Source: an uncultured Candidatus Cenarchaeum sp. (GTDB lineage: Archaea > Thermoproteota > Nitrososphaeria > Nitrososphaerales > Nitrosopumilaceae). Taken from it: a stretch of 64,000 nucleotides of DNA. The notes under the pieces are model-generated. The model saw only the letters and a program-made list of their open reading frames with translations, was not told the origin of the DNA and made no database searches. The translations under genes and the position numbers were made by a program. The stretch spans positions 1,100,161 through 1,164,160 of the forward strand of contig OY282369.1 in assembly GCA_958295735.1 (NCBI GenBank). The letters are read 5' to 3'. How positions within the stretch are numbered: position 1 is the stretch's first letter; each line of letters starts with the position of its first letter. Below, piece by piece: positions 11,564-59,190 of the stretch.

Positions 11564-11582
11564 CGCAGCCCACAGTTCAGTG

Positions 11583-11672: not shown

Positions 11673-11682
11673 CAGTTCGGCG

Positions 11683-22895: not shown

Positions 22896-24441
22896 ACTGA
22901 AATCTAGCCGGTTGAGCAGTGGCAGAACATTTGACAGCTGGCACATACCAGAACCACCACTCATCTTTGGCGACGGTAAGACACACATAGATCCCAAGAT
23001 CGGACTTACTATGTACGGACCACTTCGCGTATCCAATCGGCAGACATCCGCTCCACTTTCAATAACGGTGGGAATAGTAGGAACCGGCAAAACGGTGGGA
23101 CTAGCCAAGCAGTTTCTGCTCAAACTTGAAAGCGCTGTGCACGGGCAAGCCAAAGACCCATTTCAGACCCCGCCATTTCCAGGATTCAAAGAGGCGTTTG
23201 GCTGCGAAATAATCGTGCCAGAAGCTACAGTTGTAAACATACCACAGCGAGAGGTGGACAAGATTTCCAAACATGCGGTATTCGAAACAAGAGTAAACTA
23301 CGCCACCAGATTGTTCGCAGACAAGATCGAGTCTATCTCCGTAGCAACACATCGCCCCAATGTGGTGCTGTGTGCGCTTCCACATGAAGTAGTCGATTAT
23401 TGTGTTGCCAAACGCACAAAGGGCGGCCAGTTGACAGCAAAAACAGAGCATGTAGAGGCGGCGTTTGTGAAAAAACTTCGCCGGTTAAAAAAGTCTAACC
23501 AGACATTTTTTGGCGATTTTGGGGCCGAAGTAGATCACATCCTAGAACAAGATCTAGAAACGAGCAATTTTTGGAGGGGGCTAAAGTCTCAAGCCATGAG
23601 ATCCAGCATGCCAACACAAATCGTGTTGCCAGAAACGATCGCACCCGTCGCTGAACAAAGATCTAAGCGCCGTCAAGACGAAAGCACTATCGCTTGGAAC
23701 ATTTCTGTTGGATTGTATTATAAGGGTAGTGGATTTCCCTGGACTATGACTCGGATTAAGCACGGAACATGCTACGTAGGCATATCATTTTACAAGACGC
23801 GCGGGGGGGATACAATGCGTGCAAGCATGGCTCAAATATTCACATACACGGGAGAGGGGCTCATTCTGCGTGGAGACGAGTTTGAATGGGTAGAAGAAAA
23901 CAAGCCGCCTCATCTGGACGAAAGATCAGCAGAATCGCTCATGGGCAAGGCGATATCTCTCTACTTGTCGCACATGAGTGCTATGCCCTCCAGAGTTGTG
24001 GTTCATAAATCATCAAAGTATTCGGAAGCAGAAAAGCGCGGGTTTGAACGGGCTCTTGCCAACATAACACACCACGATCTAATAGCATTTAGCAAGCGCA
24101 ACATACGCTTCTTCAGATGCGGCAAATACCCACCACTCCGCGGAACCGCGATAAGGCTCAGCGACAAGAGTTTTATCTTGTATACGAGAGGCTACACGCC
24201 ATACCTACGTACGTATCCTGGCGGTCATGTTCCGTTGCCCCTAGACATCACGGAAATGCACGGAGATTCGGATCCAGATACGATCCTCGCCGAAATCCTA
24301 GCTTTAAGCAAAATGAATTGGAATAGTTCAGATTTTAGCTTAGGACAACCCATCACAATACTATTCTCTAGACGTGTGGGCGAAATAATGGCGTATGTGG
24401 ACGATAGAGATCTGAAGCACGAGTATCGCTACTACATGTAG
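22888..24441 (+). CDS. Short prokaryotic Argonaute (MID-PIWI), SPARTA subunit
   Basis: 517 aa. N-terminal FGDGKTHIDPKIGLTMYGPL and the following VGIVGTGKTVGLAK match the conserved start of short pAgos; the MID region follows. The PIWI part runs IAWNISVGLYYKGSGFPW, CYVGISFYK, MRASMAQIFTYTGEG, VVVHKSS, FRCGKYPPLRGT, LYTRGYTPYLRTYPG, LALSKMNWN, ITILFSRRVGEIM and ends YRYYM, the typical C-terminus. Two slicer tetrad positions are lost (VGIS where active Agos have GID; HKSS instead of an Asp), so it should bind guide and target without cutting, as in SPARTA. It forms an operon with the TIR protein. No guide-producing nuclease is encoded alongside, which is normal for this class. Confidence 0.9.
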   Translation: MNELKSSRLSSGRTFDSWHIPEPPLIFGDGKTHIDPKIGLTMYGPLRVSNRQTSAPLSITVGIVGTGKTVGLAKQFLLKLESAVHGQAKDPFQTPPFPGFKEAFGCEIIVPEATVVNIPQREVDKISKHAVFETRVNYATRLFADKIESISVATHRPNVVLCALPHEVVDYCVAKRTKGGQLTAKTEHVEAAFVKKLRRLKKSNQTFFGDFGAEVDHILEQDLETSNFWRGLKSQAMRSSMPTQIVLPETIAPVAEQRSKRRQDESTIAWNISVGLYYKGSGFPWTMTRIKHGTCYVGISFYKTRGGDTMRASMAQIFTYTGEGLILRGDEFEWVEENKPPHLDERSAESLMGKAISLYLSHMSAMPSRVVVHKSSKYSEAEKRGFERALANITHHDLIAFSKRNIRFFRCGKYPPLRGTAIRLSDKSFILYTRGYTPYLRTYPGGHVPLPLDITEMHGDSDPDTILAEILALSKMNWNSSDFSLGQPITILFSRRVGEIMAYVDDRDLKHEYRYYM

Positions 24442-24589: not shown

Positions 24590-24909
24590 GATCCAGTACA
24601 TTTCAGGTGTAGGTTTTGAGCGCAGGATCGCACCATCTTAAAACTATTGTGCAAAGATCCACATAGTCAAGCATTCTAATTTCCGCGATGGCGACGCCAG
24701 ACGCCCTACGCGCGCAGCAGCAAGCCGACCACGCGGTGAAGTTCATCAGGACGTTCGAAAGTCTGGGCATCGGGGTGGGGAAGAGACACAACGCGGCGTG
24801 CGGGCCGGGCAACTTCGCGCGCGTGGCGATGAAGGCGGGCCTCGACAACACGGCCACAGAATCCGCCGCGAAAAAATGCGGGTCCGGCAAGAAGCCGAAG
24901 CGCATCCCG
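24590..24909 (+). pseudogene. ISH3-like relic, left end and N-terminal stub
   Basis: Starts with AGATCCAGTACATTTCAGG, like the left end of the element at 31044. ATG 24688 begins MATPDALRAQQQ and aligns with the N-terminus of the intact transposase at 31148 (KRHNA..GP..FARV.MKAGL, CGSG.KPKR). It is cut after KPKRIP by IS630 copy B, and the remainder is missing. Confidence 0.75.
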
Positions 24910-24911
24910 TA

Positions 24912-26339
24912 ATGAAAACGGTAGAAAAATTGATTATTCGACAATCCGCGGCCGGCGCGCCCGACGGATGCCGCGGCAGGACGTAAAAAAAACTCGCCAT
25001 TTTGTAAATTATTCTTGGCATGCACGGTTAACAACCCAGGCCTCGATGCAGGACCGCGGCAAGACCGGCGATCAAGGCGAAGGATGGGCCCGGATACCTC
25101 CCCAACACCCCCATGCCGTACCTGAGGGAGTGCCGCAGGAAGGAGAAGGACATCAGGGCGCGCGACAGGATGACCTCCCACATGCAGAGGAAGGAGGGCA
25201 AGACGGTAGCCGAGATTGCCGCCATCGTCAACAGGAGCAAGTCCATCGCGCGCGACCGGCTGGTTCGGGCCCAGGAAGAGGGCATGCGCGGGGGGCGCGG
25301 GCGCGGGGGGCGCGGGCGCGGGGGGCGCGGGCGGAAATGCCGCCCGGACGGGGCTCAGCCCAGGCAGCTCTCGGCGGATCTCGACGGCGGCCCCGGGCCG
25401 TGCGGCTCCTGGTCCGGCCAGCGTGACTCCGGCCCCGCCCGCCAGCACGTGAAGGAAAAGTTCGGCGCGGAGCACACCAAGTCGAGGATGCGGGACATCA
25501 TGAAAGGGCTGAAGTTCTCGCGGGGAAAGCCGCGGCCGAGGAACCCGGGCGCCGCCTCGAAGAAAAAGTAGGAAGAGTCCAAGGAGCGCGCCAACAAGCT
25601 CGTGAAGGAAAAGGCCGCGGGGGGCCACACGGCGGCGGCCGGTGACAACGCCGGCATCGAGAAGGCCCTGAACAGGCCCGGCTACGGGTGGTTCCGGCTC
25701 GCCGTAGCCGCCCTGTCCCGCTCCTGCCCGACGCGGGAGAAGATGCAGATCTTCGGGATCCTGGCCGCGGGCGTGTTCTTCTACGAGTCCTGCCGCAAGG
25801 CGAACGCCGGCAACTACATAGACTTCCCGGGGCGCGTCCACAAGAAATTCGGCAAGGTGCCGATGTTCGCGGGCAACGCGTCGTACCACGAGTCGGCGAA
25901 GGCCAAAAAGTACCTGGAATCCCTCGACGGGGACATAATTTTGGAGTACCTGCCGCCGCACGCGCCGGAGCTCAACCCCACAGAGATGCAGCGGGGGGTG
26001 ATCAAGCGCGCGCTCGCCGGCAAGATCTTCAGGACGCTGGACGAGATGGAAAAGTCCGCGCGGGGGACGTTCCGCGCGGGGGAACTGAAGCCCGCCAGGC
26101 TGTTCGGCTGCCCGACGTGGTGACCGCGGCGCCCCGCCCGCCGCCCCCGTTCCCGCGCGCCCCGCCTTCCGCGCCGCTTTTCCGCGGCGATGCCGGCCGT
26201 TCCGCGCCCCGCCGCCCCGCAAAGGCCCGATCCGCCCCCCGCGCGGTGGTCCGGCCCGCCGCGACCGCGCGCAAAACCGGGATCCGCCGGGCGTGCGGGC
26301 CGCGGATTGTCGAATATTCCATTTCTTAATTGTGTTTGC
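24912..26339 (+). mobile_element. IS630-like element copy B (degenerate)
   Basis: Flanked by TA at 24910-24911 and 26340-26341. Its ends match copy A, including ATTCGACAATCCGCGGCC, with only one 25-bp unit. Inserted into the ISH3-like relic. Confidence 0.8.
25050..26123 (+). pseudogene. IS630-like transposase copy B, start lost and nonsense mutation
   Basis: Collinear with copy A. The copy A start GTG is GCG here, and at 25569-25571 TAG replaces the CAG (Gln) codon of copy A, in otherwise the same frame. Tandem GRGRGGRGR repeats are inserted near 25300. AAGDNAGIEKA, FAGNASYHES (second Asp lost to Gly) and ELNPTEM remain. Clearly inactive. Confidence 0.85.
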
Positions 26340-26404
26340 TACGGCAGCCCCGCGCCTGCCGGCGCACTGCTTGCCTGCGTGGCGGCCCCCCATCAGGCGT
26401 GGCT

Positions 26405-26427
26405 GGCAAGTGGACGTGAGTCCACAC
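26405..26427. mobile_element. M1-type element end upstream of M2 copy b
   Basis: GGCAAGTGGACGTGAGTCCACA ends at 26427, immediately before the 10-bp target copy CCAGGTGCGG (26428-26437) of the M2 element. No partner arm is nearby. Confidence 0.6.
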
Positions 26428-26437
26428 CAGGTGCGGT

Positions 26438-26526
26438 ATGAGGTCACGTACCCTCCAATCACAGGCGTGAAAGCCACTCCGTCGATCCGGATTCACGCCT
26501 GAGGAGCGGGGGGTGCTGACCTCGTA
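26438..26526. mobile_element. M2 palindromic element, copy b, perfect target duplication
   Basis: Arms TATGAGGTCA and TGACCTCGTA; inner stem CAGGCGTGAA/TTCACGCCTG. CCAGGTGCGG occurs on both sides (26428-26437 and 26527-26536), a perfect 10-bp target duplication. It lies 20 nt before the TATA box of the OLD-family gene. Probably the youngest insertion of the set. Confidence 0.88.
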
Positions 26527-26553: not shown

Positions 26554-26579
26554 GTGGCAATGCAAGTTGCTCATTGGCA

Positions 26580-28574
26580 ATGGTGCGTCTGGAAAAATTG
26601 ACTTTCGCAGGACTGTTTTCATACGCGGCAGAATCTACAGTGCGGCTTTCAAACCGCACCGTCGTAGTTGGTCCCAACAACGCGGGCAAATCAAACATAT
26701 TCCGGATCATACGCATCCTTGCAGACGCATTTTACCATGGGAAGCGTCTGCTATCTTCAGAGATGTCACAGTTGGTCGACAAATCAAGCATCAGTGCAGA
26801 GATCTCCCTGTCACCGACCGAGGCGGACAGACTCGTAGATGTTTTTGCGTGTAGAGAAGACAACAACCCCAGATTGCGAATGATCCACATGCACAGCCGA
26901 AAAAAAATTGCGGGTTACTTGGACAGGATAACAGTTAATGTTGCGTGGGATAAAATTCACGACGGATCGGGCGACAGTGCAGGCGTGGAGATACAGTTCC
27001 CAAAATGTGGGTTTGGATGCAAAGGCCGGTTAAACGACACGTACTTCGAAGTGGTGCCCTACGATGAGCGTCCTTACACTAAGAATTCTGCCACTACCAT
27101 ACAGCTCAACGAATTCGTGACGCGCATTTTTGAGGACGGAGATCCGAAGGAGGGTGCCGCGTTGTTTTTTAGCGGCCCAGACAACGCAGCCCACAGACCA
27201 GTTTCACGAATCTTAGAAAGTCTAGACGGGCTAGATCCTGAATTGCGGTTAAAAATGCAGAATCTGGTGAGTTATTTGGGGATCGACGAGAGCGCGGCGA
27301 TCAGTCTTCCACGAGTGCTTGGTACGATCCTGACAAGGGGGATCGTGCACGCTACAGAAAATAGAAACCTCTTGCAGGACAATGTCGAGAAGACTTTCCG
27401 GCGCCTTTCGCTTCCCGTACATCAAGAAAATGACTTCGGGCACAAATACAACCTCGCGTTGATAGATCGGCTGCAAGCTGATGGATTGGCACATGCAAGC
27501 GTGTTGAAACACGACGGGAGCAACATTGCACAGTTTCTATTTAGCCTGAAAAATTCACCAAGACGATCGGAGACGGAACTCTACCAGACGATCAAAAAGC
27601 AGTTTGAGCAATTGTTCGATGCCCAAAGATTGACTATCGAGCCGATCTTAAAGCATCACGTCCTCGAAAAATCGTCGACAATTCGCACGGCGGTTCCGAG
27701 GCCGCACATAGCGGTCGTAGACAAAAATCTGCAGGAACACTTGCCGCTAGCACGGGTGAGTTCAGGAGCACGCGGCGTGGTCTACATGCTGGCGGCCGTC
27801 TATGGCACCAAGAACTCCATAGTGATGCTGGACGAGCCGGGGATCAACATGCACCCCACAATGCTCCAAGCCGTCGTGGACATGATGGGCGGGCAGAACT
27901 CGGACAACCAGATACTGGTAGTGACCCACTCCCCGGATCTCTTGCGCTACGAGCTGCTTCGCGAAGATGCCGACATAATATACGTTAGAAACATTGACAA
28001 GCAAAGCAAACCCTTCCAAGCCGGGGCCGCAACAGGGCAGGACGGGAACGATCATGTCGGGATTGTGCTCAAGAACAACCCGGAGGTGTTTTTCGCCGAG
28101 TGCGTTATCCTAGTAGAAGGCAAATCCGATCGTGCCCTGCTAGAACTAGCAAGCGTCATGGAGGCCAAAGATCCCAAATACGACCTGCCGCTTAACAACA
28201 TAGCCGTTGTCAGCGTGGGCAGCAAAAGTGGCTTCCCGTCGTACATGAGACAGCTGGACGAATACGACATCCAGTGGGTGATCTTGGCAGACGAAGATGC
28301 GGAAAAAAACCCGCTCAAACGCTACAAAGCATCATGGATTTCCAAAGACGGAGTCGATGGCGAAGGGCCCATCTACCTCATAAAGGGCGATCTCGAAGCG
28401 CTTATGGAAAAGATCGATCCCGACATATATGATAAAGTCGATAAAAAATCAAAAGTGATCGCGGCGATCGAGTTTATGCAGATGCTTCGGAAGAAAAATC
28501 AGGGTTGCGTTCCTTTTCCTATCGGCGAATTTTTAGATCGGGTTGTGAGGCGTGCAAAGTCGCACGCCCGCTAG
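26580..28574 (+). CDS. OLD-family ATPase-TOPRIM nuclease
   Basis: 664-aa overcoming-lysogenization-defect type protein. ABC-type ATPase halves: Walker A VGPNNAGKS (ending about residue 38), a signature-like ARVSSGARGVVYMLAAVYG, Walker B IVMLDEPGINMHP and VVTHSPDLL. The C-terminal TOPRIM nuclease has VILVEGKSDRALLE and VILADEDAE with the metal-binding acids. Such proteins nick or degrade DNA in anti-phage defence, alone (class 1) or with a UvrD partner (Gabija-type class 2). No helicase gene follows, so class 1 is favoured. ATG 26580 or TTG 26574 may be the start. The last seven codons (AKSHAR and neighbours) and the stop lie inside an M2-like element. AT-rich. Confidence 0.85.
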   Translation: MVRLEKLTFAGLFSYAAESTVRLSNRTVVVGPNNAGKSNIFRIIRILADAFYHGKRLLSSEMSQLVDKSSISAEISLSPTEADRLVDVFACREDNNPRLRMIHMHSRKKIAGYLDRITVNVAWDKIHDGSGDSAGVEIQFPKCGFGCKGRLNDTYFEVVPYDERPYTKNSATTIQLNEFVTRIFEDGDPKEGAALFFSGPDNAAHRPVSRILESLDGLDPELRLKMQNLVSYLGIDESAAISLPRVLGTILTRGIVHATENRNLLQDNVEKTFRRLSLPVHQENDFGHKYNLALIDRLQADGLAHASVLKHDGSNIAQFLFSLKNSPRRSETELYQTIKKQFEQLFDAQRLTIEPILKHHVLEKSSTIRTAVPRPHIAVVDKNLQEHLPLARVSSGARGVVYMLAAVYGTKNSIVMLDEPGINMHPTMLQAVVDMMGGQNSDNQILVVTHSPDLLRYELLREDADIIYVRNIDKQSKPFQAGAATGQDGNDHVGIVLKNNPEVFFAECVILVEGKSDRALLELASVMEAKDPKYDLPLNNIAVVSVGSKSGFPSYMRQLDEYDIQWVILADEDAEKNPLKRYKASWISKDGVDGEGPIYLIKGDLEALMEKIDPDIYDKVDKKSKVIAAIEFMQMLRKKNQGCVPFPIGEFLDRVVRRAKSHAR

Positions 28575-30960: not shown

Positions 30961-31064
30961 CAACACCTAGGATCTACTGGCGGCTATGCGGAATCCTTCT
31001 TGGCGGAAGCCAAGCGATGCGCATCCCGCGCCGGCAAACACGTCGATCCAGTAGATCCCAGGTG
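30961..31064. repeat. Back-to-back ISH3-like ends
   Basis: CACCTAGGATCTACTGG (from about 30964) is the inverse of CCAGTAGATCCCAGGTG (31048-31064), the left end of the element that follows. A solo right end from an earlier copy therefore lies next to the present left end, giving a 100-bp palindrome. Confidence 0.6.
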
Positions 31065-32728
31065 TAGATTTTTGGGCGCGGGCCCGCGCCGCCCGAAACT
31101 GCCGCGCGATGCAAAGATCTATATAGACAAGTTTTCAGATCTCGGCGATGGCGACGCCAAACGGCCCTGACGCGCAGCAGATCTCCCGCCCCGCGGCGAA
31201 GTTCATGGGAAAGTTGTTCGGGGATCTGGGCATAGGGACGGGGAAGAGGCACAACGCGGTGTACGGGCCGGCCGACTTCGCGCGCGTGGTGATGAAGGCG
31301 GGGCTCGAGAAATCCTCCATAGAGGCCGCCACGAGATCGATGCGGCGGGCAGCGGAGGCGGCCGCGGAGGAATGCGGGTCCGGCGCGAAGCCGAAGCGCG
31401 TCCCGAACTCCGATCTCACCAGGTCGTCCATCCGCGTCGTGGGCGAGGGAAAAGTGGCCGGGTGCTGCAACAAAAAGCTGGGCAGCACCGTCCGGGCGGC
31501 CGGCCGGTCCGGGATGAAGCCCGGCGTGGCGAAGGGCGCGATCGACATCACCGACTACGGGTACCACGGCGAGAAACTGGAGGAGCACACGCGGGATTCC
31601 CGCCCGCGCGGGGGGACGTCCACGGCCATCTCGTACGCGCTGCTCCACGGCATCGGCGAGGACGCGAACGTCATGCTCAAGGTCAAGCGGTTCCCCCGCG
31701 GCTGCAAGCTGGAAAGCATCATGCTGGCGATACTGGCGGCCGCCGCCAGGGCCGGGGTGCTGCCGGAGCTGCTGCTGCTGGACCGCGGGTTCTGCAACGT
31801 GGGCTGCATGCTGGCGGCCGGGCTGAAGGGGAACAGGTGGATCATGCCGATGCTCAAGAACGCGAGGGTCAAGCGCCTCATAAGGGAGCACGACGAGGGA
31901 AAGCTGCCGCGGGCCGTGGAATACACGATGCGCGGCGCCGGCGGCAGGAGCGTGACGTTCACCCTGCTCATAGTGAAAAAAGCCGCGAACAAGGGGAAGG
32001 GGAAAGGCAAGGGGAAAGGCAAGGGGAAAGGCAAGGACGGCGGCGGCGACGGCGACGCGGTGTCGAGGTACGTCGTGTTCGCCACCAACATGCGGGTCGA
32101 GGATGCCGACGCCGCGATCGAGTCGATCCCAGAGGAATACCGCAAGCGGTGGGGGATAGAGACGGGGATCAAGGTGGTCAAGGGCATCACGGGAATCACG
32201 ACCAGCAACTCGATCGTCCTGCGGCTGCTGCTCTTCTTCGTGCCGCTCCTCGCGTACAACCTGTGGAGGATCGCCAGGTTCGCCGCCGACGCGGCGGATC
32301 GCGGCAGCGGGAGAAAGCTGACCGCGAGCATGTTCGTCGGGGGCATCGTGGTGGCCCTGGGATCGTTCGTCATAGACAGGGGCAAGTAGCGCCGGGCGGC
32401 GCCCGGGGATCCGGAGCCCGCCAGACCGCTGGAATTCGAGATGCGCCGGCCGCGGGGCCTCCCCGCCGGCCGCGCTCCCTCCCGCGCGCGGCCCGCCGCG
32501 CCCCCGTTTTTTTTTTTTTGCGGCGCGCCCCGCCGTCCCGCGCCGCCCCGCCGCCCCGCGCAAAAGCCGATCCGGCTCCCGCGCGGCGCCCCCGCTTGCC
32601 GCGGCGTCGAAGCCGGCATCCGCCGGGCGCGCCGGCCGGGGATTGCCGCGTGATGTGCTTATCTACTGTGTTTGCCGCGGGCGGCGCGAGCCTGCGCCAA
32701 AAATCTACACCTAGGACTTACTGGATCG
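31044..32728 (+). mobile_element. ISH3-like element, second subfamily
   Basis: Ends CGATCCAGTAGATCCCAGG (from 31044) and the inverse of CGATCCAGTAAGTCCTAGG (to 32728), both continuing into GTGTAGATTTTTGG, form terminal inverted repeats of about 30 bp. One intact transposase gene. The 3' non-coding part (about 32440-32650) includes a run of 13 T and a segment similar to the right end of the IS630-like elements. Confidence 0.78.
31148..32389 (+). CDS. ISH3-type transposase with Lys-Gly repeat insert
   Basis: 413 aa. ISH3-like core: first Asp in AIDITDYGYHGE, RPRGGTSTAISYALL, second Asp in LLLLDRGFCNVG, and the C-terminal Y-x-K-R-W-x-I-E signature (YRKRWGIETGIKVVKGI). TATATAG lies about 26 nt above ATG 31148. 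Oddity: a KGKGKGKGKGKGKGK tract encoded by tandem AAGGGG/AAAGGC units (32000-32035) lies between the second Asp and the Glu, in a loop that may tolerate expansion. A stub of the same subfamily is at 24.6-24.9 kb. Confidence 0.82.
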   Translation: MATPNGPDAQQISRPAAKFMGKLFGDLGIGTGKRHNAVYGPADFARVVMKAGLEKSSIEAATRSMRRAAEAAAEECGSGAKPKRVPNSDLTRSSIRVVGEGKVAGCCNKKLGSTVRAAGRSGMKPGVAKGAIDITDYGYHGEKLEEHTRDSRPRGGTSTAISYALLHGIGEDANVMLKVKRFPRGCKLESIMLAILAAAARAGVLPELLLLDRGFCNVGCMLAAGLKGNRWIMPMLKNARVKRLIREHDEGKLPRAVEYTMRGAGGRSVTFTLLIVKKAANKGKGKGKGKGKGKGKDGGGDGDAVSRYVVFATNMRVEDADAAIESIPEEYRKRWGIETGIKVVKGITGITTSNSIVLRLLLFFVPLLAYNLWRIARFAADAADRGSGRKLTASMFVGGIVVALGSFVIDRGK

Positions 32729-32805
32729 GCGGATGTCCGTTAGCCGCGAGTTCTGCCCCGGCGGTCCCATGCGGGACGAGCCGCGGCCCGGAACTTGCCC
32801 CGGCA

Positions 32806-34794
32806 TCATGCCCGATCCGCGCGGTTTTCCTGTTTGTCGCAACTGAGAAAGTCTTCGTGCGCGTTTCTGGCCCCCGACAAAAGCTCCTCCCACGTGATTT
32901 GCGTTAACTGCTTTCCATCCACCAGGTGATCGTACGCGCTTTCCGCGAGGCCTTTTACGTTCTTGCTGTCGCAAACGAGCGTCACGTGGCACCGGTCGTC
33001 CACTTTTGCTATTTCCGGGTTTGCTGATATGAACTCGTCTATCGCCCTCACGTATCCGTGGAGCCTTTCAAATTCTTCGTCGACCAGAACGTGCCCAGGT
33101 TTTTTGATCTCGGCCACCTCGATCACGCGGAATGCGGACATCAAGACAAAGTCGGGCCTCTTGTTTGCGCGGCCTATGGCGGTTGTTGTGATATCAACGT
33201 GACGCGTTTTTTTATACCACGCCTGAAACGCTTTCCTGAAATTCTCCAGGTTTTGGTTTGACTGCAATACGGTCCACTGCGGGTTGATCAGCCACGGGGC
33301 CTCTTCCAGTATCTTCTGCAACTCGATCCCGGCGGGGTCGGGATCGCCCCTTATCGCATTCTCGAGCTTGTTCAGGGCGCGCACCCTGGCATCTGCAATC
33401 TGGCCCATCCACGCCGTTTCGGCGGTTTTAGCATCGCCAAAAAGCGACGACATGATCCTGAGGGCATGCGGGCTTTCGTCGTCCGCTATAAGAGCGAGTT
33501 TGTCCACCAGCATCTTGCTTGGCGCGACGGCCAGGATCAGTTCCAGCAGGCCGTCCACGCATTCGGCGTTGTCCAGCATGCCCCTGTCGGCAATTCTTCC
33601 GACCGCCCTTCCCACGGCCGTCGCCGCTTCGTAGACCTCCTTGTCCTTGAACCGCTCTTTGGCCTTCTGCTCGAAGTTCGACTTGTCCGCGAACGTGCGG
33701 TATGTTGCGTTTCGCACGGCTTTTTCGGCATCTCGCCCGAGCCGTCCTACGACTTTCTGCCCCCACTCTTTAAACGCCTCGCCCTTGTCGGACGACCACA
33801 GTATGTCCTGCCTGTCGCTGGCTATCAGATCTTCTTCGCCGTCGAGCCAGTCTGCGCGCATTTCGCCCACGAGGTATGAGCGCATGCTGTGTTCGCCCGC
33901 GAATCCCGCCTTGCGCCCAAAGTCTCTGGTTACTGCCGCCAGCTTTCCCCTCGCGTAGATGCGGATTCCCGCCACCTCCTCGTTTTTGTACGGATGCTTG
34001 GAATATGCGACCCACCCCGCAACGCGGAGCTTTTGCCCGCCGGCATCGAGTTCCTCGTCCAGGGCGATTTTTGTGCCTTCGGCGATGTCTATTTTCATGT
34101 CCGCGATGCTGATCTCCTGCCCTGATTCCGTGTCGTGCACGGCGATTTGGAAGTCGGGCAGCCCCAGGCTGAACTTCCGGGTGATTTGGCTCGCAAGCGT
34201 GTCGCTGTCGGGTATCCTCCCGGTGAGAAAGTCCGACATTATTATCCTCGTTCCGGGCGTCGGTGACCAGCGGCGGTCTTCGCTGCACGGTATTGGCTCG
34301 TAATTGGCATCGATGTCTTTTACCATGTCGTCGTAACACATGGCAAAATGCGAAATCCTGTACCCGTTTTCTCCCTTGGGGCCTCCGGCCGACCGGACTT
34401 CGATCTTTTTGCATATCCCGAACGGCGCAAGCTTTCCTATCCCCTTCCTGCCCATGACGGCCCGGTTTTTTTTCGGGGATCTGGCCCCCCCGCCTCCGCG
34501 GCGCCCGTCCGTTCTTCGATCCGTCCCGACTTTCAGGTAAAACTTGTCGGCTTCGTCTGGATCCATGCCGTGGCCGTCGTCCTCCACGGTGATCACGTGC
34601 CCGAGATCGCGGATCACGCCGCCCTTGCGGGATGCCAGCACCTTTCCTGTTGGGACGCGCACCGTCACGTTCTCCGCATCGGCGTCGTATGCGTTGGAGA
34701 TCAGCTCTGCTATGACGTCCGACACCTTGTCGTACAGCTTGACTCCAAGCTTGTCTGTGGTATTCCCGGAGACGGTCATCGCATACGCCGCCAT
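32806..34794 (-). CDS. GHKL ATPase fused to a PD-(D/E)XK-like nuclease
   Basis: 662 aa. The N-terminal GHKL (Hsp90/MutL/MORC-like) ATPase has the N box IAELISNAYDADA (Glu 30, Asn 34), EDDGHGMD (71-78) and the lid-like GRKGIGKLAPFG (115-126). The middle is helical with no known motif. The C-terminal ~120 residues hold RPDFVLM...VIEVAEIKKPGH: Asp 548, Glu 562 and Lys 564 fit a PD-(D/E)XK site like that of Shedu/DUF4263 nucleases, followed by a conserved-looking VTLVCDSKNVKGLAE strand. Defence is the likely role: an ATP-dependent clamp loading a nuclease. ATG 34794 lies about 26 nt below TTAATAAG. An M1-type end sits 20 nt upstream of that box. Confidence 0.78.
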   Translation of the reverse strand: MAAYAMTVSGNTTDKLGVKLYDKVSDVIAELISNAYDADAENVTVRVPTGKVLASRKGGVIRDLGHVITVEDDGHGMDPDEADKFYLKVGTDRRTDGRRGGGGARSPKKNRAVMGRKGIGKLAPFGICKKIEVRSAGGPKGENGYRISHFAMCYDDMVKDIDANYEPIPCSEDRRWSPTPGTRIIMSDFLTGRIPDSDTLASQITRKFSLGLPDFQIAVHDTESGQEISIADMKIDIAEGTKIALDEELDAGGQKLRVAGWVAYSKHPYKNEEVAGIRIYARGKLAAVTRDFGRKAGFAGEHSMRSYLVGEMRADWLDGEEDLIASDRQDILWSSDKGEAFKEWGQKVVGRLGRDAEKAVRNATYRTFADKSNFEQKAKERFKDKEVYEAATAVGRAVGRIADRGMLDNAECVDGLLELILAVAPSKMLVDKLALIADDESPHALRIMSSLFGDAKTAETAWMGQIADARVRALNKLENAIRGDPDPAGIELQKILEEAPWLINPQWTVLQSNQNLENFRKAFQAWYKKTRHVDITTTAIGRANKRPDFVLMSAFRVIEVAEIKKPGHVLVDEEFERLHGYVRAIDEFISANPEIAKVDDRCHVTLVCDSKNVKGLAESAYDHLVDGKQLTQITWEELLSGARNAHEDFLSCDKQENRADRA

Positions 34795-34973: not shown

Positions 34974-37900
34974 CTAGCAGTTGATCCCGTACGTGACGGT
35001 CTGGGAGATGTAGGCCGCGTCGAGCTCGGGCACCCCCGTCAGGTCCAGCCGGAAGTCGACGCCCACGGAGCCGCCCGCCGGGGTCCCGCCCCGCACGTGT
35101 GCGCCCTCCGCCAGCGGGGCGAACCCTGCCGGGCCCGCCGACATCTCCGTGAGCGAGGGCGGCAGCGTCCCCCCCGTGGGCGTCCCGCCGAGCCCGTACA
35201 GCACCCAGTCCCCGCCCGAGACGGACACGTCCGGCATCGGCACCGTCCCCGTGTTGGTTATGGTCTGCCTCGCCGGCCCGCTAGTCCGCCCCGGGGACAG
35301 GTCGGGCAGGGCCAGCGACGGCTTTTCCAGCTTTATCTCGCACGTGTCTATCCCGCGGAGCAGCCCGGGGGCCCGCTCCCACCCCGCCGATGCGTTCGAG
35401 ACCGACCACACGCCGTACGTTATCGGAAGCCGCAGGTCGCCGTACCTGTCCAGGCCGATGCGCCCGAGCGGGCCGCCGTCCAGGGCGGCCGCCTCTATCA
35501 CGCGCGCGCCCGCTCCCGACGGGTCGCCCCCGGCCAGCGCCACGGCGCCGCCTATCGCCCGCGCGGCCTCGTACGCGGCGTACGCCGGCGTGGGCGAGCC
35601 GGGCGGCGCGCCCGTGATGCGGTCTATGCGGTCCGTCGCGGCGCTGCGCTCCACGGCGAACTGCACCGCCGACAGCCGCGTGTCCCTGGCCAGCCGCACG
35701 GCCGCCGCGTCCGACGCTATGAGGGGGGAGGCGGCCAGCCCGTCGCCGGCCCCCGCGCCCGCGCCGCCGGCCGCGAACCACGCGGCCTCCCGCGCGGGGC
35801 CGCCCGCCCGCGCGCCCCCGGCGATCTCCGCGAACCCCGAGTCCGAGCCCAAGTACACGACGGCCACGCTCCTGCCGCTCCCGTTCCCCGCCGCCCGCGC
35901 CACGGCGGCCTCCACGGATCCGGCGGCGCCCCCTCCCCCCGCGAACTCGACGGGCCGGCCTACATGTATGCCGAGCGGCGCCAGGTACGATTCGAGCGGC
36001 CCCAGCAGGCCGTACTCTTGGCCGCGCAGGCCGGCCTGCGCCACCGGGACCACGGCATCGAACCCGCCCCGCGCCACCGCGTGCGCCAGGGCCTTCGCCA
36101 TGTGCGCCGCGCCGGGCTCCAGCCTGTACACGCCGTCCCCCTCCACGGCCAGCGGGCGCGCCGCGGACGAGTGCGACACCAGGGTAATGCCGTTCTCCGC
36201 GGCGTACCCCGCCATTCCCCGCAGGGCGCGGTCAGAGGCCGGCCCCACGTACAGGACGGGCCCCCGCCCGTTATCGTGCGCGTCCCGGAGCACCGCCTCG
36301 GCGGCGGCCCCGGACGCGCCGGCCGGCACGTCGTATTCCGAGACGTCGAGCAGGAACGCGTGCCCGCGCGCCGCCGCGAGGTCGTTGAAGGCCTCGGCCC
36401 CCAGCCGCGCCGCCCACGCCGAGGGGTCGCCCGGCCCCCGCGCGAGGACCCCCACCTGCACGTGCCGCTTGCCGGCCTCCCGCTCCCCGGTGGACTTTGG
36501 GCCGGGGTTCGCCAGCGGGTTCCCGAAGGAGTCGGTGACGTTCCCGGACAGGCCGAACTCCGCCACAGAGCCGGCCGAGGCGGCCGTTCCCGCGCCGGCG
36601 TTCCACGACACTGTGACGCTGCTCCCGAACGCGGCCGCCGCGGAGGCGCCGCCGCTGTTCCCCGCCACCGCGCTGCCGTCCACCGCCATCCCGGTATAGT
36701 GGGCCGGGACGGTCAGCACCGGCTCCGTATAGACCACGGTGACGGAGTCGTTTCCCGAGACGAAGGCCCGCACGAACGACGGGCCGGCGGAGTCGCGCCC
36801 GGCCTCGAGGGGGGCCGCGGCCGGCGCGGAGCCGGCGCGCCCGTTGGACACGAAGCCGGCCGGCAGCGACACGGTGGCGGACGCCAGGGCGTCGGGCCCG
36901 GCCCCGCCGAGCTCCTCGCGCTTGGCGTCGGACACGAGCAGCCCGAACGCCCTGTCCCCCGTCCGGCCGCGCTCGACGGACGTAATGTCGCCGGCGGAGA
37001 GGGCCGCCGCGGGGGCGGCGGAGCTGCTGGTCCCGGAATCCCCCGCGTGCCGCCGCAGATCCGGCGCCGTCGCCGCCTCGTTGAACACGAGGGTGAGGCG
37101 CCCCGCCCCGGCGCCCTGCGCCAGGTTCACCGTCGCCTTGACGAGGCGCGGGGGGGTCGGATCCTGCACGTACCCCAGCGGGACGGCCGGCGGGTCGTTC
37201 CCCGCGTAGGCGTTGCCGCGCACGTCCGACACGAAGCCGGCCGGCAGCGATATGGTGGCCGATTCCAGGTCGGCCGCGTTGAGCCGCACCCGCGCGGCGC
37301 CCGACAGGTCCAGCCCGAACGCGCGGTCCCCCGCGTGGCCCGACGACACGGACGGGACGTCGCCGGCGCGCAGCGAGATCGTCCCGTTGGCGGTCGCCAC
37401 ATTTACGCTGCCCCCGAACGACTGCGCGTCGGGCGCGGCCGCAGCCTCGTCGAACTCCAGGACGAGCCGGCCGTTCTCTCCCGCGGTCAGGTCGAGCAGG
37501 GCGCTTACAAGCGAGGGGCCCTGGCCGTCCGCGAGCACCTGCGGGTAGACCGCGCCCACCGCGTACACGCGGAAGCCGCCCTCCGGCGCCGGCAGGTCGT
37601 CCGGCCCGGGGTCGAGGGCGTTGCCCGCGGGGTCCGTCACGGCGGTCCGGTTCACGGCGAGGGCGCCCGTGGCGTTGCGCGCGGCGGCATCGCCGGCGAA
37701 TGCTATCGTGTGGACGCCCGTGCCGCCCCCGTGCGCGGCGCCGCTCGCGCGGGCCGCGCCGCCCACGGTGGCCGCGCCGTACGCCGAGATCCCCGCGCCC
37801 GCGGGCTCGCTGTACCGCACGGTTATCTGGTTGGGGCCGGTGATCGCGGCGGACAGTACCGTGGGGGCGGTGCCGTCGTACATGATGGAGAACCGCCCCG

Positions 37901-40900
37901 ACTCGGCGCTGGGGTTGCCTTCCAGGTCCCGCGCCGCGCCCGCCGGTATGTCGACCAGTATCGCCCCGTCCCTCGCGGGCGACACCCCGAACGAGTACGA
38001 TGCGCCCGAGCCGGAAAAGTTGGCCGGGCCGCCGCGCGAGGCGTTGCCGGAAATCACGACGTCGTCCGGCGCGAACCCGGTGACGTTCTCGCCGAACTCC
38101 ACCGTGAAGTCGATCGTCGTGGAGTTGGTGGGGCCGCGCTGCGCGGCTTCCACGACCGGGGTCGGCGCGCCGTCGTATACTACCAGGAACCGCTCCGCCG
38201 CCCTGCTGGGGTTGCCTCCCAGGTCCCGCGCCGCGCCCGCCGGTATGTCGACCAGTATGGTTCCGTCCCTCGTGGGCGAGACGGAAAAGGTGAACGCGGT
38301 GGCGTTGGCGCGCGCGAAGCCGTACGCGCCGCCGTGCGAGGCGTTGCCGGAAATAACGATGTCTTCAGGAGCGAACCCGGTGACGTTCTCGCCGAAGTTC
38401 ACCGTGAAGTTGATCGTCGCGGAACTGGCCTGGCCGTACCGCGCGGCCGAGACGACCGGGGTCGGCGCGCCGTCGTATATTATGGAGAATCGCTCCGCCG
38501 CCCTGCTGGGGTTGCCCGCCAGATCTTCCGCCGCGCCCGCCGGTATGTCGACCAGTACGGTCCCGTCCGACGTCGGCGAGACGGAGAACTCAAACGCCGT
38601 GGCGTTGGCGGCCGCGAAGTCGGCCACGCCGCCGTGGGCCGCGCTGCCGGAAATCACGACGTCCCGGGCCTCGAACCACGTGACGTTCTCGCCGAAGTTT
38701 ACCGTGAACCATATGGTGGTGGCGTTGGTCGTGCCGGACTGCGCGGCTTCCACGACCGGGGTCGGCGCGCCGTCGTATACTATGGAGAACTGCTCCGCCG
38801 CCTCGCTGGGGTTTCCCGCCAGGTCCCGCGCCGCGCCCGCCGGTATGTCGACCAGTACGGTCCCGTCCCTAGTGGGCGAGACGGAAAAGGTGAACGCCGT
38901 GGCGTTGGCGCGCGCGAAGCCGTACGCGCCGCCGTGCGAGGCGTTGCCGGAAATAACGATGTCTTCAGGAGCGAACCCGGTGACGTTCTCGCCGAAGTTC
39001 ACCGTGAAGTTGATGGTCGTGGAGTTGGCAGGGCCGCGCTGCGCGGCTTCCACGACCGGGGTCGGCCCCGTCCTGTCTGTGCCGATGCTCGCGATATTGG
39101 AGGCCTCGTTGGCGTTTCCGGCCGCGTCCTGCACGCGGCCGGCCGGCATGCTTGCCGTGAGGCTCTGCACGCCGGCCGGATTTGCCACGTCGAAGGCGTA
39201 CGCGGGATCGAACACTTGGACGCGGTTGTTGTACGTGTCGGCCACGTAGACGTTCCCCGCGCCGTCGACCGCGACGCCCCCCGGCTGGTAGAACCGGCCG
39301 TCGCCCTGGCCGTAGGATCCTATGGTGGCGGCGTGGTTCAGGGAGGAGTTGAAGACCTGGACGCGGCTGCCGTACGTGTCGGCCACGTAGACGTTCCCCG
39401 CGCCGTCGACCGCGACGCCGTACGGGTAGCTGAACCGGCCGTCGCCCTGGCCGTAGGATCCTATGGTGGCGGTGTGGTTCAGGGAGGAGTCGAAGACCTG
39501 GACGCGGCTGCCGTACGTGTCGGCCACGTAGACGTTCCCCGCGCCGTCGACCGCGACGCCGCGCGGGTAATAAAGTCGGCCCTCGCCCCAGCCGAAAGAG
39601 CTGATGGTACTGGAGTGGTTCCATTCGGGGTCGAAGACCTGGACGCGGCTGTTGTACGTGTCGGCCACGTACACGTTCCCCGCGCCGTCGACCGCGACGC
39701 CATGCGGGTGGTAGAACCGGCCGTCGCCCCGGCCAGGGCCGATAGTACCGGAGTGGTTCCAGTTGGGGTCAAAGACCTGCACCCGGTGGTTGCCCGTGTC
39801 GGCCACGTACACGTTCCCCGCGCCGTCGACCGCGACGCCGCGCGGATCGCTGAACTGGCCGTCGCCCCGGCCGTAAGAGCCGAAGGAGGCGGAGTGGTTC
39901 CGGGAAGAGTCGAAGACCTGGACGCGGTGGTTCCCCGTGTCGGCCACGTACACGTTCCCCGCGCCGTCGACCGCGACGCCGGACGTGTCGTTGAACTGGC
40001 CGTCGCCCGAGCCGTGGGAGCCGAACGTCGCGTTGTGCTGCGGCGCGAACCGCAGGTTCCGCACCGTGCCCGAGGAGGCGTCGATGTAAGATGCGTCCAT
40101 GGCCGAGGCGCCCATGGGCTCGCCGAATCCCACGGCGAACTGCACGGTCCGCAGGTCGGCGGGGCTCGGCAGCACGGGAGCGATCGCCGGTACCGGGGGC
40201 GTGCCGTCGTGCGTGATGAAGAACCATTCCGCCCTGCTGCCGCTACCCGCCGCGTCCCGCGCCGCGCCCGCCGGTATGTGGACCAGTATCGTCCCGTCCG
40301 ACGTGGGCGACACCTCGAACGAGTACGAGGCGCCCGCGCCCGCGAAGTTTTTTGCGCCGCCGTGGGATGCCGTCCCCGACACGGCGACGTCCCGGGCCTC
40401 GAACCCGGTGACGTTCTCGCCGAACTCGGCCGCGAACCGGATCGTGGGGGCGTTGGTCGGGCTGGACTGCGCGGCCGAGACGGCCGGGGTCGGGCCGCCG
40501 TCGTACGCTATGGCGAGCCGTCCCGCTGCGGTGTTGTTGTTGCCAGCCGCATCCTGAGCCGCGCCGGCGGCTATGTCGACCAGTATGGTCCCGTCTCCCG
40601 TTGGCGAGACGCCGAAAGAGTACAAGGAGCCGCCGCCCGCGAACCCTTCAACGCCGCCGTGGGGGGCGGTCCCCGACACGGCGACGTCCCGGGCCTCGAA
40701 CCCCGTGACGGGCTTGCTGAAGTTCACCGTAAACCGGATCGTAGAGGCGTTGGTCGGGCTGGACTGCGCGGCCGAGACGGTCGTGGTCGGTCTGGTCCTG
40801 TCTATGCCGATGCTCGCCGCATCGGAGGCCTCGTTGGCGTTTCCGGCCGCGTCCTGCACGCGGCCGGCCGGCATGCTTGCCGTGAGGTTCTGCCCGCCGG

Positions 40901-43900
40901 CAGGGTCTGCCACGTCGAAGGCGTACGCGGGATCGAACACTTGGAAGCGGGAGTTTCCCGTGTCGGCCACGTATATCGCGCCCGTCGGGCCGTCAACCGC
41001 GACGCCATGCGGGTGGTAGAACCGGCCGTCGCCCCAGCCGGAAGAGCCGATGGTGGCGGAGTGGTTCAGGGAGGAGTCGAAGACCTGCACGCGGTGGTTC
41101 CCCGTGTCGGCCACGTAGACGTTCCCCGCGCCGTCGACCGCGATGCCCCCCGGCTGGTAGAACCGGCCGTCGCCCGAGCCGAAAGAGCCGATTGTGGCGG
41201 AGTGGTTCAGGGAGGAGTCGAAGACCTGGACGCGGTGGTTCCCCGTGTCGGCCACGTAGACGTTCCCCGCGCCGTCGACCGCGACGCCGCGCGGCTGGTA
41301 GAACCGGCCGTCGCCCGAGCCGTAGGAGCCGACGGTGGCCGTGTGTTCCAGGGAGGAGTCGAAGACCTGCACGCGGGAATTGTTCGTGTCGGCCACGTAG
41401 ACGTTCCCCGCGCCGTCGACCGCGACGCCGCGCGGCTGGTAGAACCGGCCGTCGCCCCGGCCGTAGGAGCCGACGGTGGCCGTGTGTTCCAGGGAGGAAT
41501 CGAAGACCTGCACGCGGTGGTTCCCCGTGTCGGCCACGTATATCGCGCCCGTTGAGACGTCGACCGCGACGCCGCGCGGATCGCTGAACTGGCCGTCGTC
41601 CCGGCCGTAAGAGCCGATGGTGGCGGAGTGGTTTCCAGAGTCGAATACCAGGACGCGGGAATTGTTCGTGTCGGCCACGTAGATGTTCCCCGCGCCGTCG
41701 ACTGCAATGCTGGACATGTCTCCGAATTGGCCGTAGCCCCAGCCGTATGCACCGAATGTGGCGTTGTGCTGCGGCGCGAACCGCAGGTTCCTCACCGCGC
41801 CCGAGGAGGCGTCGATGTCGGATGCGTCCAGGGTCAAGGCGTTTACGGGCTCGCCGAATTCCACGGCGAACGGCACGGTCCGCAGGTTGGTAGGGCCGGA
41901 CAGCGCGGGGACGATCGCCGGGACGGGGGGCGTGCCGTCGTACGCGATGAAAAACCGTTCCGCCGCGGTGTTGTTGTTGCCAGCCGCGTCCCATGCCGCG
42001 TTTGCCGGGACGACGACCAGTATCGTCCCGTCGGACTCGGGCGAGATGCCGAAAGAGTACGAGGCGCTTCCGCCCGCGAACCCTTCGACGCCGCCGTGGG
42101 ATGCCGTCCCCGACACGGCGACGTCCCGGGCCTCGAACCCGGTGACGTTCTCGCCGAAGTTCACCGTGAACCATATGGTGGTGGCGTTGGTAGGGCCGGA
42201 CTGCTCGGCCGAGACGACCGGGGTCGGCGCGCCGTCGTATACTATGGAGAATTGCTCCGCCGCCCTGCTGGGGTTGCCCGCCAGATCTTCCGCCGCGCCA
42301 GCGGGAATGTCGACCAGTATCGTCCCGTCCCTCGTGGGCGAGACGGAGAACGTGAACGCCGTGGCGTTGGCGGCCGCAAAGTTGGCCACGCCGCCGTGGG
42401 CCGCGCTGCCGGAAAGCACGACGTCCCACGCCTCGAACCACGTGACGTTCTCGCCGAACTCCACCGTGAACCATATGGTGGTGGCGTTGGTAGGGCCGGA
42501 CTGCTCGGCCGAGACGACCGGGGTCGGCGCGCCGTCGTATACTACCAGGAACCGCTCCGCCGCCCTGCTGGGGTTGCCTCCCAGGTCCCGCGCCGCGCCC
42601 GCCGGTATGTCGACCAGTATGGTCCCGTCCCTCGTGGGCGAGACGGAAAAGGTGAACGCGGTGGCGTTGGCGCGCGCGAAGCCGTACGCGCCGCCGTGCG
42701 AGGCGTTGCCGGAAATGACGACGTCTTCAGGCGTGAATCCGGTGACGTTTTCGCCGAACTCCACCGTGAACCATATGGTGGTGGCGTTGGTAGGGCCGGA
42801 CTGCTCGGCCGAGACGACCGGGGTCGGCGCGCCGTCGTATACTATGGAGAATTGCTCCGCCGCCCTGCTGGGGTTGCCTCCCAGGTCCCGCGCCGCGCCC
42901 GCCGGTATGTCGACCAGTATGGTCCCGTCCGACGTCGGCGAGACGGAGAACGCGTACGAGGCGCCCGAGCCGGAAAAGTTGGCCACGCCGCCGTGCGAGG
43001 CGTTGCCGGAAATAACGACGTCCCGGGCCCCGAACCACGTGACGTTTTCGCCGAACTCCACCGTGAACCGGATCGTGGCGTTGGCAGGGCCGTGCTGCTC
43101 GGCCGAGACGACCGGGGTCGGCGCGCCGTCGTATACTACCAGGAACCGCTCCGCCGCCCTGCTGGGGTTGCCTCCCAGGTCCCGCGCCGCGCCCGCCGGT
43201 ATGTCGACCAGTATGGTCCCGTCCGACGTCGGCGAGACGGAGAACGCGAACGCCGTGGCGTTGGCGCGCGCGAACCCTTCGACGCCGCCGTGCGAGGCGT
43301 TGCCGGAAATAACGACGTCCCGGGCCCCGAACCCGGTGACGCTCTCGCCGAAGTCTACCGTGAAGTTGATCGCGGAGACGCCGGTCGGGCCCGGCAGCGC
43401 GGCCGCGACGGCCGGGATCGGCCCCGTCCCGCCTGTGCCGATGCTCGCGATATTGGAGGCCTCGTTGGCGTTTCCTGCCGCGTCCTGCACGCGGCCGGCC
43501 GGCATGCTTACCGCGAGGCTCCGCACGACGGCCGGGTTTACCACGTCAAAGGCGTACGCGGGATCGAACGCCTGCACGCGGTGGTTTCCCGTGTCGGCCA
43601 CGTATGCCGCGCCCGTCGGGCCGTCGACCGCGACGCCCCCCGGCTGGTAGAACCGGCCGTCGCCCGAGCCGTAGGCGCCGACGGTGGCCGTGTGTTCCAG
43701 GGAGGAGTCGAAGACCTGGACGCGGTGGTTCCCCGTGTCGGCCACGTAGACGTTCCCCGCGCCGTCGACCGCGATGCCCCCCGGCTGGTAGAACCGGCCG
43801 TCGCCCGAGCCGAAAGAGCCGATCGTGGCGGTGTGGTTCAGGGAGGAGTCGAAGACCTGGACGCGGTGGTTCCCCGTGTCGGCCACGTAGACGTTCCCCG

Positions 43901-45137
43901 CGCCGTCGACCGCGATGCCCCCCGGCTGGTAGAACCGGCCGTCGCCCGAGCCGAAAGAGCCGATTGTGGCGGTGTGTTCCAGGGAGGAATCGAAGACCTG
44001 GACGCGGTGGTTCCCCGTGTCGGCCACGTAGACGTTCCCCGCGCCGTCGACCGCGACGCCGGACGTGCCGTTGAGCCGGCCGTCGCCCGAGCCGTGGGCG
44101 CCGATGGTGGCGGTGTGGTTCAGGGAGGAATCGAAGACCTGGACGCGGTGGTTCCCCGTGTCGGCCACGTATATCGCGCCCGTCGGGCCGTCGACCGCGA
44201 TGCCCCCCGGCTGGTAGAACCGGCCGTCGCCCGAGCCGTAGGCGCCGATGGTGGCGGTATGGTTCCAGAATGAGTCAAAGACCTGGACGCGGTGGTTCCC
44301 CGTGTCGGCCACGTAGACGTTCCCCGCGCCGTCGACCGCGGCGCCGCTTGGCCAGGCGAACCGGCCGTCGCCCGAGCCGCGGCTGCCGAGGGCCGCGCCG
44401 TGCTGCGGCGCGAACCGCAGGTTCTCCACATCTCCCGGGAAGGCGTCGATGTCGGATGCGTCCAGGGTCGAGGCGTTCACGGGCTCGCCGAATTCCACGG
44501 TGAACGGCACGGCACGCAGGCCGGCGGGGCCCTGCAGCGCGGGGGCGATCGCCGGGACCGGCGGCGTGCCGTCGTATACTATCAGGAACCGCCCCGCCGC
44601 GCCGGTCGCGTTTCCGGCCGCATCCAGCGCCGCGCCCGCCGGTATGTCGACCAGTATGGTCCCGTCGGACTCGGGCGAGACGGCGAAGGAGTACGAGGCG
44701 CCGCCGCCCGCGAACCCGGCGACGCCGCCGTGGGGGGCGGTCCCCGACACGGCGACGCCGCTGGCGTTGAACCCGGTGACGTTCCCGCCGAACTCGACCG
44801 TGAACCATATGGTGGAGGCGTTGGTCGGGCCGGACTGCTCGGCCGCGACGACCGGGGTCAAGCCGGCTGCCGGGTGGTAGACGTCCGCGTGCGCGTGCGG
44901 CGCGGCGGCGCAGCCCGCAAGGAGGGCCACGGACAGGATCAGGAATGCGGCGGGCGGCGGGCGGCGCCGGGGCGCGGGGCTCCCGCCGCCGCCCCGCCCG
45001 TGCCCGAAACCGCTTCCGCCGTGGGGCCGTTCCCCGCCCCGCCCGCTGCCCTTCACGCCCGCCCCGCCGTGCCCGTTCTTAGGCCGGGCGGCATCGGGGA
45101 GGCGAAGGCCGCCGCCCCGCCCGCCCGCCTCCCGCAT
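34974..45137 (-). CDS. Giant secreted NHL/Ig-like repeat protein with PBP-like C-terminal region
   Basis: Nominally 3387 aa. A basic Gly-rich leader is followed by a hydrophobic segment (about 63-79, [14 protein letters not shown]) that looks like a signal sequence, possibly with a lipobox. Then come three blocks of six NHL repeats each (consensus [35 protein letters not shown]...), encoded at about 43.56-44.40, 40.93-41.76 and 39.20-40.03 kb, which should fold as three six-bladed propellers. Between and around them are about 12 Ig-like (Big_12-like) domains of the [21 protein letters not shown] type, with half domains leading into each propeller. The last ~450 residues resemble a type I periplasmic binding protein ([10 protein letters not shown]...[31 protein letters not shown]). 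N-x-S/T sequons are dense, fitting a glycosylated surface protein. Start uncertain: the TATA box at 45214-45221 points to about 45193, where the ATG is out of frame. Confidence 0.8.
   Translation of the reverse strand: [3387 protein letters not shown]
39200..44400 (-). repeat. Three six-unit NHL-repeat arrays separated by Ig-like repeats
   Basis: DNA-level near-repeats of about 140 bp (NHL) and 290-300 bp (Ig-like). Adjacent NHL units share long identical stretches such as GTGTCGGCCACGTAGACGTT. This degree of identity suggests recent unit duplication or gene conversion. Confidence 0.9.
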
Positions 45138-54156: not shown

Positions 54157-54166
54157 TGTTGGAATC

Positions 54167-55147: not shown

Positions 55148-55167
55148 GCGTGCGATCAAGCCTAGTC

Positions 55168-55175
55168 ATATATAA
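55168..55175 (-). promoter_or_regulatory. TATA box of the CRISPR-Cas operon
   Basis: TATATATG/TTATATAT on the minus strand, about 25 nt upstream of ATG 55147; the strongest TATA box in the window. Confidence 0.75.
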
Positions 55176-56074
55176 GTATGGTCACACAGATCAGGTACGA
55201 GGTCAGCACTCCTCCCTCTCCCCCCCCCCCCCCGCGCGGGCGCGGCTCGGGGGCTCGGGGCTCCGCCTAGATCAGCTTCGCCACTTCCGCGGTCGCGCCC
55301 TTGCCGTGCGCCCTCCAGGTCAGGACGCGCGCCACGAAGCTGGACATGCGCCTCATGGCCACGGGGCCTCCCTTGATCTACCCGCTTGTATCGCGGAACA
55401 CCACGGCATACCGCAGGGCGCGCCCCGGGGAGTCGTTGGTCGGCTCCACCTCCGGGTATTCCGCGAACGTGAACGGGGCCGACGTGAACATCCCGATCCC
55501 GGCCGCCAACTTTTCCAGCCGCTCGTCGCCCAATCCCGCGTACCGGTCCAGCACTCCCCACGGCATCACTTCCATGGCCCGGCGTAGCCGCGCCGACGGT
55601 GCCCCCTCGTCGCGCGGCCGCAGGGCCTCCGCGTACGCGCGCGACGGGCCCCCGCGCGGGAGGCGCGAGTCAGGATGCGCCCCGTCCGCGTCCGCGGCGA
55701 GCCCGGGGCCGCGCGGCTCGCGCGCCCGGCAGGCCTGGCGCTTGCCGCCCGGATCGAGCGCCTCGCGCGGACGGTGGCCGTCCGGGGCCGCGCATCCCCC
55801 GTACCCGTCCGCGTGCGCGCCGATCACCCTGCTACCACTGCTCCTGCCGTGCACGACGAACTGGTTGAGGCCCGACTGGACGGCGCGGATCCTGCCCCGA
55901 ATCCCGCCCGGCGACGTGCCCGACTCGCCTACTCCCGCCGCCGGCGAGCCGATTTCTTTCATCACGCCATTCGTCGTCGATTCCAAGGCGTCCCCGACCC
56001 GCGTGAGCACGTCGATCGCCGCGGATTTGGCCATGCCGCGGCCGAACAGCGAGTCCGCGGCCCTCGCGACTCCG

Positions 56075-59169: not shown

Positions 59170-59190
59170 ACAGGCCATGACGCCTAGCAG

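Follow-up and report, generated by a model that had tools for sequence, protein, structure and literature searches.

A methylase-less homologue of ATPase-powered restriction enzymes, of doubtful nuclease activity, in an archaeal genome

A gene that joins a GHKL ATPase to a nuclease-like C-terminus and lies among defence genes in an archaeal genome raises the question of whether it is a self-sufficient defence system or a restriction endonuclease parted from its methyltransferase. The gene is located in a 64-kb stretch of DNA, here called the window, and an initial annotation favoured the first answer, a stand-alone defence gene that could not be matched to a named system. The comparisons described here suggest instead that the gene encodes an already known kind of ATPase-powered restriction-type enzyme that has apparently lost its partner methylase and one nuclease residue, and whose activity is doubtful. 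The gene joins two separate literatures, that of the HgiDII/BbrUII type II restriction enzymes and that of GHKL-Shedu (VcSduA) defence.

Domain architecture and conserved residues

The positions of the gene, its domains, and the adjoining insertion sequence are given in Table 1. The N-terminal GHKL ATPase with three nucleotide-binding motifs, as initially annotated, is present: Pfam HATPase_c_3 matches with an E-value of 9.5e-19, and the motifs are E30 and N34 (motif I), D72-D-G-H-G-M77 (motif II), and G115-R-K-G-I-G120 (motif III). From 84,980 scanned prokaryote species, 46 homologues were taken and aligned; their identity to the window protein is 37-46%, and E30, N34, D72, G74, G76, G115, G118, and G120 are invariant among them. 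The C-terminal D-(x13)-E-x-K site also lies exactly where it had been read, within the motif P547-D548-x13-E562-I-K564; P547, D548, E562, and K564 are present in all 46 aligned sequences, so the motif is not a product of chance; homologues without the D/E/K residues, which would have told against the initial annotation, were not encountered.

Table 1. Coordinates within the window of the gene, its domains and key codons, and the neighbouring insertion sequence
Feature	Position	Strand	Basis
Complete ORF, 662 aa, ATG start	32806..34794	(-)	GHKL ATPase, middle domain, C-terminal PD-(D/E)XK nuclease
GHKL ATPase module, residues about 1-215	34150..34794	(-)	HATPase_c_3, invariant motifs, Foldseek matches
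S5-like transducer and long-helix middle domain, residues about 216-480	33355..34149	(-)	AlphaFold2, Foldseek; S5 presumed
PD-(D/E)XK nuclease domain, residues about 481-662	32809..33354	(-)	AlphaFold2, weak PDB folds, SduA_C in homologues
D548 codon, catalytic motif	33151..33153	(-)	Invariant, 46/46
E562-x-K564 codons, catalytic motif	33103..33111	(-)	Invariant, 46/46
Codon 489, GGG (Gly)	33328..33330	(-)	Glu in all 45 other homologues
Insertion sequence, DDE_Tnp_1 transposase at 31148-32389	31041..32731	(+)	~55-bp inverted ends

Structure prediction agrees with a nuclease of the PD-(D/E)XK type. AlphaFold2 models the whole protein with a mean pLDDT of 82.7 and the C-terminal 193 residues (470-662) with a pLDDT of 86.9 and a pTM of 0.82. 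The nuclease model runs through a helix (489-498), two strands (550-554 and 557-563), a second helix (572-591), and a further strand (602-607); this predicted helix-strand-strand-helix-strand order is the PD-(D/E)XK arrangement. The modelled middle domain has helices within residues 336-483. In Foldseek searches the whole model matches Hsp90 types (TRAP1/HtpG), MORC2, SMCHD1, and MutL; the alignments to the MutL, MORC2, and Hsp90 N-middle modules cover 390-470 columns and extend beyond the GHKL domain, with S5 not isolated as a unit. The best PDB matches of the C-terminal model are restriction-type (MspJI, AspBHI, and FokI), although weak (E 0.008-0.05), and the nuclease domain finds mainly RPB5-type proteins in a viral library. 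Sequence searches of solved structures gave only weak Hsp90-type matches for the whole protein (phmmer) and no significant PDB match for the nuclease profile.

One residue of the nuclease sets the window copy apart. Proteins of the family have E489-x3-Q493 in the nuclease helix, and Glu489 is found in all 45 other homologues, the window copy alone having glycine; its codon 489 is GGG, versus GAG in the nearest paralogue. The E-x3-Q pattern occurs without exception in three bona fide SduA_C (Shedu) proteins and is common to the clade to which the window gene belongs, but is absent from the window copy. In PD-(D/E)XK enzymes the helix glutamate often assists metal binding, so activity of a copy with Gly489 cannot be assumed; judged from this residue, catalytic competence is in doubt, and cutting may be poor or absent.

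Family membership and linkage to methyltransferases

Searches with family models place the protein among named systems, contrary to the initial annotation. The NCBIfam model NF050001 (BbrUII/HgiDII) aligns over nearly its whole length, residues 4-657 with profile positions 1-649 (E 5.6e-66), at a score of 223.4 bits, which is under the 550-bit curated equivalog cut-off. The sole phage relative found, from Escherichia phage PhiR44_1, matches with 98% coverage and is annotated ParaMORC3, and PADLOC type II restriction endonuclease (REase) models match all 46 aligned homologues. The proposed likeness of the nuclease to Shedu is borne out in relatives: Pfam SduA_C matches 13 of the 46 homologues and the PADLOC SduA model 10, and an hhalign comparison of the clade's nuclease domain with a three-sequence SduA_C profile gives P 89.5% and E 2e-6. 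The window protein itself has no match to PF14082 (SduA_C) at E 0.1. Sampling of SduA_C proteins in 116 genomes of the Pseudomonas order added nothing new, leaving the Shedu profile with three sequences. At the level of the clade, the link of the nuclease to Shedu is a real one.

A tree built from 106 relatives places the window gene, together with two paralogues, in a clade of 58 rows (support 100) with members in bacteria and archaea. A usable neighbourhood was available for 54 clade loci, 40 outside Nocardia and 14 within it. Outside Nocardia, a C5 methyltransferase gene lies within 500 bp in 39 of the 40 loci, often overlapping, and 671 bp away in the fortieth; the PhiR44_1 ParaMORC3 and plasmid relatives are likewise annotated beside cytosine methyltransferases. 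No C5 methyltransferase was found beside the 14 Nocardia copies or anywhere in the 64-kb window. The description of the gene as a stand-alone one thus holds for the window copy, but not for most of its clade.

The 14 Nocardia copies all adjoin the same housekeeping-like genes, which we take, reading them by eye, to be serA and leuB. The solitary Nocardia members of the clade (loci L047, L052-L066, L072, and L076) occupy an apparently conserved chromosomal site, which suggests a vertically inherited, methyltransferase-independent role. A different arrangement is seen in Pseudomonas, Lysobacter, and Comamonadaceae (L023-L027 and L075), in which a single C5 methyltransferase gene lies between two different REase genes of paraMORC3 type (R-M-R').

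Solitary members bear on a tentative reading, possible but on the unlikely side, that the window gene specifies an active stand-alone phage-defence nuclease similar to VcSduA, with an ATPase that would sense a phage feature and turn on the nuclease, and with no methylation-based discrimination of self from non-self. VcSduA, described in 2025 as Shedu type I-D, has the same architecture and acts alone, and its E27A and K557A substitutions, which abolish defence, match E30 and K564 of the window protein (PMC12137116). The Nocardia copies indicate that solitary forms persist, and the SduA_C matches among homologues and the abundance of defence genes in the window also fit such a role. The same clade is nevertheless methyltransferase-linked in 39 of 40 loci outside Nocardia, and the window protein lacks both an SduA_C match and Glu489. 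Since one clade holds this protein with a C5 methyltransferase (in most taxa) and without one (in Nocardia and this archaeon), it can be tested whether stand-alone GHKL-Shedu proteins arose from restriction-modification (R-M) systems by loss of the methyltransferase.

Paralogues, selection, and genomic setting

The host genome, which belongs to the Nitrosopumilaceae (3.17 Mb in a single contig), shows an extreme expansion of REase genes that is not paralleled by methyltransferases. It has 11 genes over the NF050001 cut-off, one of them broken; together with the three-member subfamily of the window gene and a further two-member subfamily, about 16 such genes are present altogether. Alongside these are five C5 methyltransferases and 24 matches to N4/N6-methyltransferases. 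Of the five C5 enzymes, a single one, at C1:2140110, falls within the methyltransferase clade found beside BbrUII-type REases in other genomes; its gene lies immediately next to one of the 11 copies. In a survey of roughly 1,200 genomes, one or two strong matches were the most seen in any other genome, a count based on few scored candidates per genome; the survey took in 250 genomes of the same family, 398 of the same phylum, 297 of the actinobacterial class, and 274 of the gammaproteobacterial class, the phylum sample overlapping the family sample. A genome of the same genus (G001) had no such match. This methylase-poor expansion in one archaeal genome is more surprising than the window gene itself.

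The two closest paralogues, A45 (C1:45651) and A48 (C1:48195), are 77% and 67% identical to the window protein, and a C5 methyltransferase is encoded near both, at C1:55874. That enzyme groups in an archaeal clade (support 97) with the partners of three window-clade members (L042, L043, and L070), but its closest kin in other Nitrosopumilaceae are paired with another paraMORC3 clade, and it is therefore a candidate partner only, its cognacy unproven.

Compared with A45, the window gene has a dN/dS ratio of 0.26 as a whole and 0.23 for the nuclease domain, which indicates purifying selection on the protein for most of the time since duplication. Such values count against the view, an unlikely one, that the gene is a decaying duplicate, its nuclease already crippled, left over from R-M expansion in a genome rich in insertion sequences. 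What recommends that view is damage within the subfamily: E489G is unique to the window copy, A45 keeps Glu489 but has Q493H, and A48 has Q493W and has had its C-terminal ~38 residues severed by an IS66 insertion (lost end at C1:53387-53503). In addition, an insertion sequence with inverted ends at 31041-31095 and 32678-32731 (87% alike) terminates, on its 32731 side, 75 bp from the stop codon of the window gene. The reading frame is intact, however, with all other catalytic residues present, and the protein departs from the family at seven of 100 strongly conserved positions, which is ordinary for divergent members.

The genome-wide count has a further, quite doubtful interpretation, in which the paraMORC3 family of this archaeon would have become an expanded set of methylase-less effectors, Shedu-like defence nucleases gated by ATP or, in members that have lost nuclease residues, silencers that clamp DNA. 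It sets the 11 BbrUII-type genes and the three-member and two-member subfamilies against the five C5 methyltransferases, and the proteins would no longer work as classical R-M pairs. A role for the window protein as a MORC-like DNA-binding or compaction factor, an ATPase clamp silencing foreign DNA with the nuclease dispensable and the loss of Glu489 tolerated, is very improbable: the fold matches include the ATPase modules of MORC2 and SMCHD1, the ATPase motifs show full conservation, and the nuclease helix motif is altered in all three paralogues, but D548, E562, and K564 are kept and dN/dS is as low in the nuclease domain as elsewhere.

Two other groups of GHKL genes were observed in the host genome. 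The two-member subfamily is a tandem pair of paraMORC3 genes, 71% identical, with no methyltransferase nearby (L011:7397-11953; C1:826896-831452); these proteins are probably nuclease-dead, as the ExK lysine is Met or Ala in their sequences. The second is a tandem array (L021/L022; C1:2666000-2685000) of about six proteins of ~710-750 aa with N-terminal GHKL domains and, in the one protein scanned, a C-terminal GHKL domain too, with receiver-like genes in between; it resembles the two-component-like elements tied to paraMORC and R-M systems (PMC8011034).

The setting among defence genes that was initially described is confirmed in the window. A TIR-APAZ protein and a short pAgo are encoded in tandem (SPARTA-like) at 21486-24441 (+), with a GC content of 46-48% versus about 65% for the window; the pair is flanked by an IS630-type transposase gene (20006-21256) and related remnants (25113-26123) and is possibly carried by a composite transposon. 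An OLD/GajA-like ATPase-TOPRIM protein with no evident partner gene follows at 26574-28574 (+). Type I-G CRISPR genes (cas8g, cas3g, cas5-6g, and cas7g; GC about 50%) occupy 48027-55159 (-), no CRISPR array being found within 55100-59500, and a GmrSD-type (DUF262 + DUF1524) type IV restriction protein is encoded at 61537-63270 (-). The window gene is adjoined by a gene for a giant 3387-aa protein with many NHL-like repeats (34974-45137, -); giant repeat proteins of similar type are found near other REase copies (L017 and L019). A 624-aa ORF at 24603-26477 (-) was set aside as spurious, having no matches and overlapping transposase remnants.

The GC content of the window gene (58%) lies between that of recent-looking acquisitions in the window (46-51%) and that of native genes (about 70%), which fits an origin by horizontal transfer and subsequent partial amelioration. 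A mobile cassette was considered for the dispersed BbrUII copies, which have in common a 100-400 bp flank with inverted matches, but was rejected, as the piece in common is a ~95-bp genome-wide repeat that is not specific to REase genes. The repeat occurs at 3988-4095, 11578-11675, and 63284-63373 of the window and at most of the host-genome loci analysed, in both orientations and in places as tandem copies (L016:7045-7240), and has the look of a MITE-like or intergenic element.

Proposed function and comparison with known systems

The preferred explanation, held with moderate confidence, is that the window gene is a copy, without a methylase of its own, of a restriction endonuclease gene of the paraMORC3 type (HgiDII/BbrUII-like), and that it is either protected against in trans or in partial decay. 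The protein would dimerise through its GHKL ATPase, ATP binding would close the dimer on DNA, and ATP turnover would allow DNA without protective cytosine methylation to be cut by the C-terminal PD-(D/E)XK (Shedu-type) domains. The gene would have been duplicated in the host genome, with protection in trans coming most plausibly from the C5 enzyme at C1:55874. A restriction endonuclease is favoured by the full-length NF050001 match, the PADLOC REase matches, the methyltransferase-linked clade, the intact D548, E562, K564, and GHKL residues, and the overall dN/dS. Counted against it are Gly489, the sub-cut-off NF050001 score, the uncertain partnership with the C1:55874 enzyme, and the lack of bias in GTCGAC, the HgiDII site; this sequence occurs 153 times in 316 kb of the host genome versus 156 expected, neither avoided nor enriched, and specificity could thus not be inferred from site avoidance. 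The case against an active enzyme rests mainly on the E489G substitution, and that against simple decay mainly on selection and the retained motifs.

The BbrUII/HgiDII enzymes are alignable to the window protein over its full length, have the same domain order, and correspond to relatives most of which have a C5 methyltransferase partner; the m5C methyltransferase M.HgiDII, which acts on GTCGAC, has been characterised (PMC5867850). The window gene differs in belonging to another clade, in scoring below the cut-off, and in having no partner at its locus. The paraMORC3 family was defined by a GHKL domain, an S5 domain, and a nuclease with an E-D-ExK signature, and stand-alone genes were already noted (Iyer, Abhiman and Aravind 2008, PMC2292703). 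The window protein likewise combines GHKL with a C-terminal RE-fold nuclease bearing D-ExK (D548, E562, and K564), but has Gly489 in place of the signature glutamate.

By its published description, VcSduA has the same layout, a GHKL N-terminus and a DUF4263/SduA-like PD-(D/E)XK C-terminus, with E27 and K557 equivalent to E30 and K564 (PMC12137116); it acts alone, whereas the clade of the window protein is usually methyltransferase-linked and SduA_C is undetected in the window protein. For solitary REases, both distant cognate methyltransferases and fragmentary copies have been documented as explanations (Ershova et al. 2012, PMC3488263). The window gene is likewise an REase gene without a linked methyltransferase, but, in contrast to those cases, it is accompanied by many paralogues of one GHKL-type family in one genome.
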